64,000 nt of DNA from Succiniclasticum ruminis DSM 9236 (GTDB lineage Bacteria > Bacillota > Negativicutes > Acidaminococcales > Acidaminococcaceae), in the NCBI RefSeq assembly GCF_900112895.1, contig NZ_FONL01000013.1, forward strand, positions 1-64,000, in the 5' to 3' direction. The notes under the pieces were generated by a model. That model was given only the letters and a program-made list of their open reading frames with translations, made no database searches and was not told where the DNA came from. Of the stretch, positions 48,913-53,009 are shown piece after piece. A program made the position numbers and the translations under genes. Positions within the stretch are counted from its first letter, which is position 1, and the number at the start of each line of letters is the position of its first letter.

Positions 48913-49203
48913 TCACGTTTGCGACTCTTTATTCTCTTCGTTTTCTTCCTCTGTTGTTGCATTTGCTTTTTTTATCAAAGTTGCATTAATTAAATCTTGC
49001 ATGATTTCAATAGTTTTTGGTGAAGTTAATGCCATATAGGTTATATCATTCAACTCATTCCTGTTTTTGGCATCGACTATATAACTAGATAAATGAATAA
49101 CATAATAATCCTTCTCAACGGCAGCCGGGGTAATCCTGTTCTGATCGGCAGTAAACAGAACCGCATTTTTGAACTCTTCTCTGTCCTCATGCAACCACGC
49201 CAT
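48913..49203 (-). pseudogene. Truncated AbiEii-type nucleotidyltransferase toxin
   Basis: The first 35 or so residues (MAWLHEDREEFKNAV through VEKDYYV) look like the start of AbiEii/AbiGii toxins, where VEKDYYV is typical. The nucleotidyltransferase core is absent, and an unrelated Glu/Asn-rich tail follows. Its ATG overlaps the end of the AbiEi-type gene, as in real AbiE pairs. Full AbiEii proteins are about 250-300 aa; this one is 96 aa and should be inactive. Confidence 0.6.
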
Positions 49204-49828
49204 TTAACAATCCCACCTCGTACATATTTCTATATAGCCTATCCGGATAATATGGGAAGTACTGTTTTAAGATGTCAAAACTCAAGTCATTTGCCTTCAT
49301 GTACCCGACAAGCCTGTCTGTCAATTCCGTACCATCAATCTCAGCAATGTCTCTGACCTCCTTCATGAGATCAAGGAACTGCAGGATGCTCGCGTTACCG
49401 TCATTAATTTCGACATAAGGACGCCTGATAATAACACGCTGGCTGCCAATGGTAGTGTCGCGATAATCTGTGGTCGCTTTATTAGTGTACACCTCGTAAA
49501 CCACGGGTACCTGCGTCGTGATCCCCAGCTGATTGGCAAACATCATCCCGCTTAGATAACCGCAACGACAGCCATCGTCAACCAGATATTTTTTTCGAAT
49601 CACATCATCTGGCGATAGCATAGACCCGAAACGGAACATAGATTTTCTGGGAAGGTAATAGATGCCCGTATCAAAACGTTTCAGTCTTCCATCTTCCGTT
49701 AGCTTCTTGATCTGCTGGCGTAGTGAAACAGACTTCATATCAGGAATCTTCAGCTCTGACAAAAAAATGGGTTCATTCAAATCGTAGTTCTCTGTCAGAT
49801 AACTATAAACTTTATCAATCTGAGCCAT
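49187..49828 (-). CDS. AbiEi-like antitoxin/DUF6088-type regulator
   Basis: This 213-aa protein has an N-terminal winged helix (FLSELKIPDMKSVSLRQQIKKLTEDGRLKRFDTGIYYLP) typical of AbiEi antitoxins, which repress their own operon, and a C-terminal domain of the same family. The ATG at 49828 has AAGGAGGTG upstream, and the longer ORF start is not supported. The partner toxin gene is broken, so this is an orphan antitoxin-type regulator. Confidence 0.78.
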   Translation of the reverse strand: MAQIDKVYSYLTENYDLNEPIFLSELKIPDMKSVSLRQQIKKLTEDGRLKRFDTGIYYLPRKSMFRFGSMLSPDDVIRKKYLVDDGCRCGYLSGMMFANQLGITTQVPVVYEVYTNKATTDYRDTTIGSQRVIIRRPYVEINDGNASILQFLDLMKEVRDIAEIDGTELTDRLVGYMKANDLSFDILKQYFPYYPDRLYRNMYEVGLLNGVVA

Positions 49829-49955
49829 CTCCGCACCTCCTTTCAAAACATTTAAGAAAGTTCATTTTCTTATTTGTTATTATACTCCCTATAAAGTTTG
49901 ATAACAAGTCCCCAAACTTAACTTTTTTATGAAAACGACCATCTGCGTATAAAAC

Positions 49956-50075: not shown

Positions 50076-51485
50076 TCATGCCTTTCTTGCGGAATTTGCA
50101 GCCGCGGCAAACAATTGCTTCAACACTTCAAAAGCCGCCTGCTTTTTGGCTTTGGTCTTGCCCGGGGCCAGACCCACGCCGCTTATACCGTCGCAGCGAC
50201 AACGGCAGTACCAGTGATCCAGATCCCGCTCTTCAAACTCGTAGACCGGAGCCTGTGCCAGATATTTTTTCTGATACAGCTCCTGTAGCTGGTTAATGCT
50301 GTTCTCCAGCTCCGGCATAATACCCGACTCCTTTAAATTGACCCACAGGCCGTGGTTCATCACAAACCGATACGCATCCCAGGCCGCTTCCTCCCGGGCC
50401 TTGCTGCGGTTCTGTGCCCTGAACACATCCACGCGCTGGTACTGATGAATTTCTTTGTCATTGGCAGGCACGCGGTAACGTAACGTGCAATCATACCAAT
50501 CCTTATACCCATGCACCTCATACTCCGGCATCGTGCCAAAATTCCGCTGATGCCAGGCATTAAAAATGTCGTAATAACTGGCTTTCAAAAACTCATCCGG
50601 CTTCTCCAGTTGCACGCAGATCAGTTTGTCCACCACACCGGTAATGATATCCCAATCCCAGTCACAATCTATTGTCACCGCACCAATAAGAGCCTCCATC
50701 ATATCTTCCCGGCTGCTTTCCGTTGCCTCTTCCCCGGTTCCATACAGAATCAGCCTGTCCAAACCAAGTTCTGCAGCACGAGCCGATAAAAACTCTTTGG
50801 AAACAAAACGGCTGCGTATCTTCGTAAGATCGCCTTCCTGAAAACGCACCATAAACGGCGCCTCGGTCTTTTCCTCCTGTATCGAGGAAAGCTGCTGCAA
50901 CATGTCCCGGGTTACCACCGTGTTCAGCACCGTGTCACCCAGAAACTCCAGTTCCTCGTTACAGCCGGAGAGCCCGTACTCCACTGCAAACGCACGGCGG
51001 GTAAAAGCCTGCCGCAGCAGGTTTTCATTGACAAACTCATACCCGATGGCCTCACGCACCGTAACAACCGGATTCTCCGTAACCGGCACACAATCTATCT
51101 TCAACAGATTCAGGTGGTCCGAAAGATCATCCAACCAAATATCATAATCAAAACACTGTTCCTCTTTATCCCAATACTCTTCGCCCATCTCCGGAGTGAA
51201 CGCTTCTTCCTCCCAGTCATCCGCTTCGTCTTCATCAAGTTCCTCTTCCTCATCATAGTCTTCATTCAGCGTGTAATCGTCGTTCAAACGCCCGATTTCC
51301 ACCAGAGAATCAAAATAGTCCTTGATGTCCACCAGGTCCTGCGCTATTTCGTCCAGAGAATCCGGAATAAAGTCTTCTTCCCAGGCCATACCTGCTCCGT
51401 CTCTGAGTGGTTCGGGCCATGCACAATTTTCCGGCCAGGGCTTATGTTTCACATTATTGCTTCCCTTCAACTTGTTTTCTAACAT
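50076..51485 (-). CDS. Large RNase III-family protein with acidic N-terminus and two dsRNA-binding regions
   Basis: This 469-aa endonuclease-like protein is about twice the usual RNase III length. An N-terminal extension (1-140) is very acidic, with runs of D and E around 75-95. The RNase III domain holds NEELEFLGDTVLN (176-188) and EDMMEALIGAV (260-270). Residues matching the E. coli catalytic set (E38, E41, D45, E65, D114, E117) are all present here (E177, E180, D184, E217, D261, E264). Two dsRBD-like parts follow (about 303-378 and 397-462, the latter ending GKTKAKKQAAFEVLKQLF). The start has GGAGG 6 nt upstream, but that site is paired in a hairpin. It lies in accessory DNA and may be a second RNase III. 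Confidence 0.82.
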   Translation of the reverse strand: MLENKLKGSNNVKHKPWPENCAWPEPLRDGAGMAWEEDFIPDSLDEIAQDLVDIKDYFDSLVEIGRLNDDYTLNEDYDEEEELDEDEADDWEEEAFTPEMGEEYWDKEEQCFDYDIWLDDLSDHLNLLKIDCVPVTENPVVTVREAIGYEFVNENLLRQAFTRRAFAVEYGLSGCNEELEFLGDTVLNTVVTRDMLQQLSSIQEEKTEAPFMVRFQEGDLTKIRSRFVSKEFLSARAAELGLDRLILYGTGEEATESSREDMMEALIGAVTIDCDWDWDIITGVVDKLICVQLEKPDEFLKASYYDIFNAWHQRNFGTMPEYEVHGYKDWYDCTLRYRVPANDKEIHQYQRVDVFRAQNRSKAREEAAWDAYRFVMNHGLWVNLKESGIMPELENSINQLQELYQKKYLAQAPVYEFEERDLDHWYCRCRCDGISGVGLAPGKTKAKKQAAFEVLKQLFAAAANSARKA

Positions 51486-51492
51486 AAAAATA

Positions 51493-51533
51493 CCTCCATG
51501 CATTCCGACATTTGCCGTTAATAAACATGGAGG
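51493..51533 (-). promoter_or_regulatory. Ribosome-binding-site hairpin in the RNase III-like leader
   Basis: The transcript arms CCTCCATG and CATGGAGG (8 bp, 25-nt loop) enclose the GGAGG ribosome binding site just before the start codon. Opening or cutting this stem would be needed for translation. E. coli rnc is known to be controlled by cleavage of its own leader. Confidence 0.6.
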
Positions 51534-51738
51534 ACATGATCTGATTCTTTGTTTTGCGCAAAACACGCATACTGCCACCGGGAGGAAGTTACAGTACGCC
51601 TGTTCCCCGCGCTGATCCATCGAAACCATTGCAACGATTTATCGTAAGCTATCTCTCTGCCTGCCGGCCCCCTTTCCAAAACCGGCAACCAGGATGATAT
51701 ACATACGGCAAAACGCCTCATGCCATCCATGCAATATT

Positions 51739-51767
51739 ATTGTATACGATATTACGTAGGATGACAA
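51739..51767 (-). promoter_or_regulatory. Promoter of the RNase III-like gene
   Basis: On the minus strand TTGTCA (51762-51767), a 17-bp spacer and TACAAT (51739-51744). Transcription from here gives a leader of about 245 nt, which is otherwise without a gene. Confidence 0.6.
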
Positions 51768-51835: not shown

Positions 51836-51990
51836 GTTTCACACTCTCTTTAATAAATCACCTTCGCAATTCAGTGACTAACAATCCAACATTACTGCCA
51901 ACCTCATTTTTAAGTTTTACTATATCTTCACAGTAAGACTTTTCATTTGCAATTGCAATGTCAATTCTTCCAACAAGCTCTATAGCATTG
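51836..51990 (-). pseudogene. C-terminal scrap of an unidentified gene
   Basis: A minus-strand frame ending at a TGA near 51857 reads NAIELVGRIDIAIANEKSYC followed by about 25 more residues. It starts in the middle of the AAA fragment described next, which suggests a deletion joined two gene ends. I do not recognise the source. Confidence 0.35.
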
Positions 51991-52690
51991 TAACTCGTCA
52001 ATTACATACGTTTTACCCTCCTTTGATAGTAAAACTTCTAATAAGTCCAGTATTCTTAGCGTACCATCAGACTCCTCTGATAATTCAAACAGTATACCAT
52101 CCTTACCATGTGAAAATTCGATTGTCTGACATTCAACTTTTTCATCCTTACTTACCGTTATAGCAAAAAAATCAAACTTACTTCTCATTACCATAATGCT
52201 TTTTTCATTGTCATTATTTTGCCTGTGTTCTACCTGTTTCCGCTCAATGTCTCCTGTAATACGATCACGAAGATTTTTGGGCAGTGTTTCCAGTACTTGT
52301 TCCAACTGCACATCAATCATTTTATAATCAGTTATGCCTGTACCGAATGCAGAAATTACTTTGCATACTTCCTTGACATTATCTGCTCTCGAAAGATAGT
52401 AGTAATCTGAAATAGGCACATCTGGAAAATTAATGTCTAATGCTTGTTTTATCCAATCAAATACATCCTTTAAAATATGAGCTTTTTCAAATTTAAGATA
52501 AAAATTCTTTTTGTTTCGATTCATGACAGTCAAAAAAAGAACCGTACTGTCATCTTTGATATCGCTTGTGTAAACTTCCATTGTTTGCCACATTTGAAGA
52601 ACCGGAATTAAACGTTGCAGAAAATATATTTTTTGTTGGATATCCAAATGATTGATATGATATAAAGAATAATCTGCCTTTAATCCGTTC
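51961..52690 (-). pseudogene. AAA ATPase fragment, both ends missing
   Basis: The open frame lacks a Walker A motif at the start but ends in the late part of an AAA_15-type ATPase: SEESDGTLRILDLLEVLLSKEGKTYVIDEL matches the signature plus Walker B region. The normal continuation after VIDEL is replaced by unrelated sequence. The apparent TTG start at 52647 has no clear ribosome binding site, and the frame continues upstream without a start. It is probably the remains of a defence-type ATPase. Confidence 0.6.
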
Positions 52691-53009
52691 CGGCATGATT
52701 GCCAGTCACCCTAAATTCAACTACAACGGAGAACCTATTTTTATCATTGATGCGCAAGTATTTCCCGGGTCAAGCGGCAGCCCCGTCTATATCGATTTAA
52801 CGTATGAAAATATTAAAAATGGCAAGATAACTCTCGGAATTAAAGAGATAAAACTTCTGGGAATTGTATCTTCTACTATGATTCGAAATAATCGCTTAAA
52901 GGCAATTCAAACGTCCCATTTTGAAGTATGTTCTGAAGAGGTGCTTGGATTAGGAATAGTTTTCAAGTCCACTCTTATTAAAGAATTGATTGATAGCGCA
53001 CCAAAATAA
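52655..53009 (+). pseudogene. Trypsin-like serine peptidase, C-terminal fragment
   Basis: The plus-strand frame reads IKNNLPLIRSGMIASHPKFN and then IIDAQVFPGSSGSPVYID, with the catalytic-serine motif GSSGSPV. The His and Asp of the triad would lie in a missing N-terminal half. The ORF from 52695 has no ribosome binding site. It abuts the AAA fragment tail to tail at a junction near 52660. Confidence 0.6.

Follow-up and report, generated by a model that had tools for sequence, protein, structure and literature searches.

A long RNase III with two dsRNA-binding domains and a conserved leader RNA that looks like an expression switch in Succiniclasticum ruminis

The window analysed here, the first 64,000 nucleotides of contig NZ_FONL01000013.1 of Succiniclasticum ruminis DSM 9236, encodes a 469-residue RNase III. 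By ORF reading, the plus strand of the interval 50076-51485 is closed and the minus strand is the only open one. The gene and its product comprise the following features:

50076..51485, minus strand: coding sequence, 469 aa, with its ATG at 51485 and a strong Shine-Dalgarno (SD) sequence, GGAGG, upstream
Protein residues 1-140: acidic N-terminal region with a WPENCxWPEP motif
Protein residues ~141-290: RNase III catalytic domain
Protein residues ~304-377: first dsRNA-binding domain (dsRBD1), divergent
Protein residues ~396-461: second dsRNA-binding domain (dsRBD2), INQLQELYQKKY

The RNase III active site is complete, with all six acidic residues in place (E177, E180, D184, E217, D261 and E264), as an earlier sequence-only reading of this DNA had proposed. 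Pfam places the RNase III domain at residues 153-274 with two models above cut-off (PF14622, 65.5 bits; PF00636, 53.2 bits), and the best structural matches of the catalytic part in Foldseek/VIA are the catalytic domains of RNase III and Dicer. The extra acidic N-terminal stretch of about 140 residues, also remarked on in that reading, contains 46 D/E against 9 K/R and has a pI of 4.05. Towards the C-terminus, the Pfam dsrm model matches residues 397-458 at 20.2 bits, just under its 23-bit cut-off, and the first dsRBD gives no Pfam match in the 469-aa protein. An AlphaFold model built on a 12-sequence alignment (mean pLDDT 82) contains, at high confidence, two consecutive α-β-β-β-α units at 304-377 and 396-461; the second dsRBD-like region that had been suspected is thus borne out by two dsRBD folds in the modelled C-terminal part.

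Sequence comparison establishes an architecture that differs from those of known bacterial enzymes. Like canonical rnc products, the protein combines a catalytic domain bearing the six acidic residues with a C-terminal dsRBD; unlike them, it is long, carries two dsRBD units rather than one, the extra unit being divergent, begins with the acidic N-terminus, falls under the TIGR02191 cut-off, and belongs to a separate clade whose members are accessory and sporadic. Mini-III enzymes have no dsRBD, from which the long protein is set apart by its dsrm score and its two modelled dsRBD-type folds. In budding-yeast Dicer, Dcr1, an N-terminal extension lies ahead of the RNase III domain. The long protein shares with this enzyme a layout in which a lone RNase III domain precedes two dsRBDs; Saccharomyces castellii Dcr1 has one such domain and a pair of dsRBDs (PMC4521922). 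The window protein is bacterial, however, and the likeness is one of domain layout rather than of proven ancestry or activity as a Dicer. According to a 2022 review there are only the canonical form, with one dsRBD, and Mini-III, with none, among bacterial RNase III enzymes (PMC10989914), and we found no description of a double-dsRBD bacterial RNase III or of its leader in the open-access literature. The double-dsRBD enzymes are a third class beside these two, with a clade and an undescribed RNA leader of their own.

A normal rnc of 253 aa is encoded separately in this genome, on contig C25, downstream of and adjoining fabF, which is what the sequence-only reading had suggested looking for. 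This product scores 241 bits against the TIGR02191 equivalog model, whereas the long protein reaches 113.7 bits and misses the cut-off of 166.25. The long form is absent from the 60 relatives searched, from 13 congeners and from the 219 other genomes of the class that were sampled; this distribution and the presence of the normal rnc run counter to a sole RNase III whose long form is general in the family. Full-length homologues are scattered among gut-type Clostridia, with one in an Erysipelotrichaceae; one homologue is plasmid-borne, on pRUMAL01 of Ruminococcus albus. C-terminal profile matches occur in 7 of 397 sampled Lachnospiraceae genomes, three of the seven with the leader described below. 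Each of the 17 carrier genomes tested also has a normal RNase III. A tree built from 59 RNase III proteins sets the 26 with two dsRBDs on one side of a 100/100 branch, establishing a single clade, and a related second dsRBD is common to the subgroups of about 330-410 aa that lack the acidic tail. It is well supported, on this comparative evidence, that the gene is an accessory, horizontally spread RNase III in a clade apart from the housekeeping enzymes, and the earlier idea of a second, special RNase III fares well on the same grounds: the separate clade, the sparse horizontal distribution and the normal rnc alongside in 17/17. We considered a phage or viral origin and rejected it; the viral_contigs search returned no relative, and the phage records matched essentially the catalytic domain alone.

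Upstream of the start codon, on the same strand, lies a structured RNA leader behind a promoter-like sequence:

51739..51767, minus strand: sigma-70-like promoter, TTGTCA-17-TACAAT; S1 begins 6 nt past the -10 box
51486..51732, minus strand: structured and conserved 5' leader RNA, extending over 247 nt from S1 up to the ATG
51719..51732, minus strand: S1, putative 5'-terminal strand GCAUGGAUGGCAUG, partner of S2 or of a local strand just 3' of P2
51634..51716, minus strand: P2, long covarying hairpin of ~34 bp (family-wide figure), in which the CCUGG and GCAGAG strands are invariant
51525..51538, minus strand: S2, anti-Shine-Dalgarno strand CAUGUCCUCCAUGU
51493..51501, minus strand: S3, GCAUGGAGG, including the Shine-Dalgarno sequence, partner of S2
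51486..51492, minus strand: U-rich spacer UAUUUUU directly past the S2:S3 hairpin, a possible terminator U-tract

A 5' leader of about 180-360 nt is present at every acidic-tail gene tested. Comparison of these leaders establishes a common structured core, a closing region plus the long hairpin P2, in which 43 consensus pairs were defined, 24 of them changed on both sides. The covariation score of 0.463 compares with 0.227 (sd 0.018) for shuffled controls and 0.09-0.14 with slid partners, and for the window leader the folding energy lies 5.5 sd under that of its shuffles (z -5.5). Its 5' ~110 nt are highly conserved in sequence, and S1 starts 6-7 nt past a promoter-like -10 box in 15 of 17 leaders. 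A covariance model, R1, recovers the leader at every acidic-tail gene tested, and gives 100.6 bits to L065, a leader outside its training set that belongs to the second copy in the L035 genome. No leader scanned matches Rfam release 15 at the gathering score, the sub-threshold matches being at chance level only. A pattern match on a viral contig (L075) received no support from the covariance model. One relative of 689 aa (L043:7671-9737) is extended by a long C-terminal region, and no R1-type leader could be detected at its gene. The leaders of subgroup B (L044:7745-7970, L079-L082) contain a very conserved second hairpin between P2 and S2, GUGCCCGAU...GCGCACGGGAU...GUGGGCUUU.UCGGGC, with nothing alike in the window leader.

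Three strands of the leader compete for pairing. Complementarity of S1 with S2 and of S2 with S3 occurs in all 22 leaders examined, across four subgroups, and in the acidic-tail group, as in most of the others, S2 starts 33-67 nt upstream of the start codon. The same triad is built from different sequences in subgroups B, C and D. The mean S1:S2 energy is -18.1 kcal/mol for native pairs and for swaps within subgroups, against -10.7 kcal/mol for swaps between subgroups and -8.1 kcal/mol with shuffled S2, although in subgroups C and D native pairs are not always stronger than foreign ones. Folding predictions give S1:S2 a probability of 0.99-1.00 in 17 of 17 transcripts that end before the SD; in complete leaders it ranges from 0 to 0.99, with the two states closely balanced in several. 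In consensus folds S1 can also pair with a local partner past P2, a third possible state. A T-rich spacer follows the S2:S3 hairpin in 21 of 23 leaders, and the spacer between SD and AUG has a mean T content of 0.80 compared with 0.31 in 95 control genes (p 2e-10).

From its sequence, the leader looks like an attenuator/SD switch. The S2:S3 hairpin and the T-rich spacer are consistent with a hairpin that both terminates transcription and blocks the SD, S1:S2 being the putative antiterminator. Equilibrium folding did not support the simple view of an SD exposed in every intact leader: the SD stays mostly paired even there, so an ON state would depend on kinetics or on a factor.

Taken together, we favour, at a probability of roughly 0.55, the reading of an accessory dsRNA nuclease under its own repression: by binding or cutting the leader of its mRNA, the enzyme would keep its expression down, and other dsRNA would induce it by titrating the enzyme. 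By analogy with the RNase III family, the enzyme would cut dsRNA as a homodimer with two dsRBDs per subunit. In the ON state, S1 would capture S2 as soon as S2 is transcribed, forming the antiterminator and leaving the SD free. In the OFF state, with S1 lost or locked away, S2:S3 would form, hide the SD and, through its terminator-like hairpin and U-run, stop expression. We propose P2, the neighbour of S1, as the sensor: enzyme not otherwise engaged might bind or cut it and so remove or capture S1, whereas enzyme titrated by other dsRNA, for example from phage or antisense transcripts, would leave the leader intact and more enzyme would be made. We infer these ON and OFF assignments, as well as the sensing of dsRNA, from the arrangement of the strands. 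The sequence-only reading, which overlooked the leader, had offered maturation of a specific RNA as an alternative role; the gene's own leader is a candidate for that RNA. The leader offers a directly testable regulatory circuit, and if dsRNA titration does induce the enzyme, this would be a bacterial dsRNA-responsive nuclease, of a kind known from eukaryotic antiviral immunity.

Leaders that govern the mRNA of an RNase have precedents. In the control of E. coli pnp, a cut by RNase III is followed by the action of PNPase, and we know of no SD/anti-SD triad in the pnp leader. According to work cited in PMC3997798, a double-stranded element in the pnp leader governs the RNase's own mRNA, which is the kind of control proposed here. 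The rncO leader of E. coli is likewise a structured 5' UTR before an RNase III gene, whose counterpart here is the proposed target of the gene product, and cleavage by E. coli RNase III destabilises rnc mRNA (PMC8708148). Unlike rncO, the window leader is predicted to form an exclusive switch between a 5' strand, an anti-SD strand and the SD, with a terminator-like U-run. RNase III of both E. coli and Streptomyces has its own gene regulated at the mRNA level (PMC8708148, PMC3997798), and a conserved long hairpin before an RNase III gene is most simply the target of the enzyme, as in these organisms. P2 may accordingly be viewed as a candidate binding or cleavage site of the encoded RNase III, the normal RNase III being an alternative cutter.

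The wider setting of the gene is a sugar-nucleotide gene region, and an IS200-like transposase and the following genes lie close by:

48913..49203, minus strand: AbiEii-like gene, truncated; the first ~45 residues alone match
49187..49846, minus strand: AbiEi-like gene, downstream neighbour
51961-52647, minus strand: AAA_21/AbiL-like protein, likely a remnant; the front of its models is unmatched
52695-53009, plus strand: apparently 5'-truncated gene for the C-terminal third of a PDC-S45-like (candidate defence) protein

The AbiEi-like gene and its truncated AbiEii-like partner (48913-49846, minus strand) are a decayed AbiE system. The description of this DNA as IS- and scar-rich holds, given the IS200-like and truncated defence genes. 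Elsewhere, homologues neighbour SIR2-like and TIR genes (L038), ThsB-like TIR and caspase-like genes (L036), AbiE-like genes (L040) and a patatin-like gene (L037). The check on whether homologues lie in defence islands came out in favour: 82 PADLOC families were matched among 73 flanking proteins compared with 8 among 70 controls, a count of families rather than proteins, with control stretches that were few and hand-chosen. The enrichment supports a defence-island setting rather than a defence function. With PADLOC 2.0.0, the window RNase III itself matched no defence family, and no constant operon partner was found across the loci examined, where downstream genes vary and defence content is mixed. 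Of the earlier proposal of a special RNase III for antiviral dsRNA cleavage, the special second enzyme stands, and the antiviral role is compatible with the enrichment of defence genes.

Two views of the biological role can be set against this background. The enzyme may serve ordinary RNA processing for mobile DNA or the host, acting on antisense RNAs, plasmid-copy RNAs or element transcripts without a part in defence, a reasonable possibility that we would nevertheless bet against. It draws on the homologue on pRUMAL01, on the resolvases and IS200-like genes near RNase III loci, and on a second cyanobacterial RNase III that affects plasmid copy number (PMC10989914); however, most other carriers have no plasmid signature in the stretch examined, and the flanks match many defence models. 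This view concerns the role alone and is compatible with the proposed autoregulation through the leader. More doubtful is a bacterial minimal-Dicer-like dsRNA immune nuclease, whose production would be turned on when foreign dsRNA titrates it off the leader hairpin.

The leader might instead answer to another ligand, such as a metabolite, a host protein or a stress signal, as a riboswitch or protein-binding attenuator, the RNase III being simply the regulated gene. Riboswitch-type attenuators work through mutually exclusive antiterminator, terminator and SD helices. The succession of S1, its local partner, S2 and the SD/terminator has that classical layout, and the invariant CCUGG/GCAGAG core within a covarying P2 helix is what a ligand pocket would require. 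We consider such a ligand unlikely, as the leader was found with this gene only whereas riboswitch classes usually precede several genes, the sensing element is a hairpin with ~34 bp of dsRNA, the natural substrate of RNase III, and matches no Rfam family, and the leaders, sequence-diverged yet related, follow the protein subgroups in their divergence.

A function in trans, in which the leader or a fragment processed from it would join the RNase III in a ribonucleoprotein, for example as a guide or decoy in defence, is very unlikely. The conserved 5' ~110 nt would suit such an RNA, a possible terminator before the AUG would release an RNA of ~230 nt, and leaders and genes come one to one, also for the two copies in the L035 genome. 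Against this, S2 and S3 change in step with the SD of the gene itself, a mark of action in cis, and a leader without the gene was not found in the Lachnospiraceae, class genomes, phages and plasmids searched. Among 397 Lachnospiraceae genomes R1 detects the leader in three, all carriers, with no orphan leader in the other 394; among 220 genomes of the class it detects the window copy only, 219 being negative. No DNA-level match to the leader was found in phages or plasmids, the plasmid search being insensitive, as the R. albus leader, which the covariance model detects, escaped it. The weakest alternative, that the gene is the housekeeping rnc of the lineage in a long form, has the RNase III domain and dsRBDs in its favour and is excluded by the separate rnc beside fabF, the relatives without the long form, the 100/100 split of the tree and the missed TIGR02191 cut-off.

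Two further observations concern individual loci. Genome G063 (Lachnospiraceae AC2029) has two diverged double-dsRBD RNase III copies, L035 and L093, each with its own leader. At L040:6836-7591 and L038:6895-7623, similar small proteins without a Pfam or PADLOC match are encoded just upstream of RNase III and share a closely related motif (KECCFNKKMA and KECSFNKKMA, respectively).
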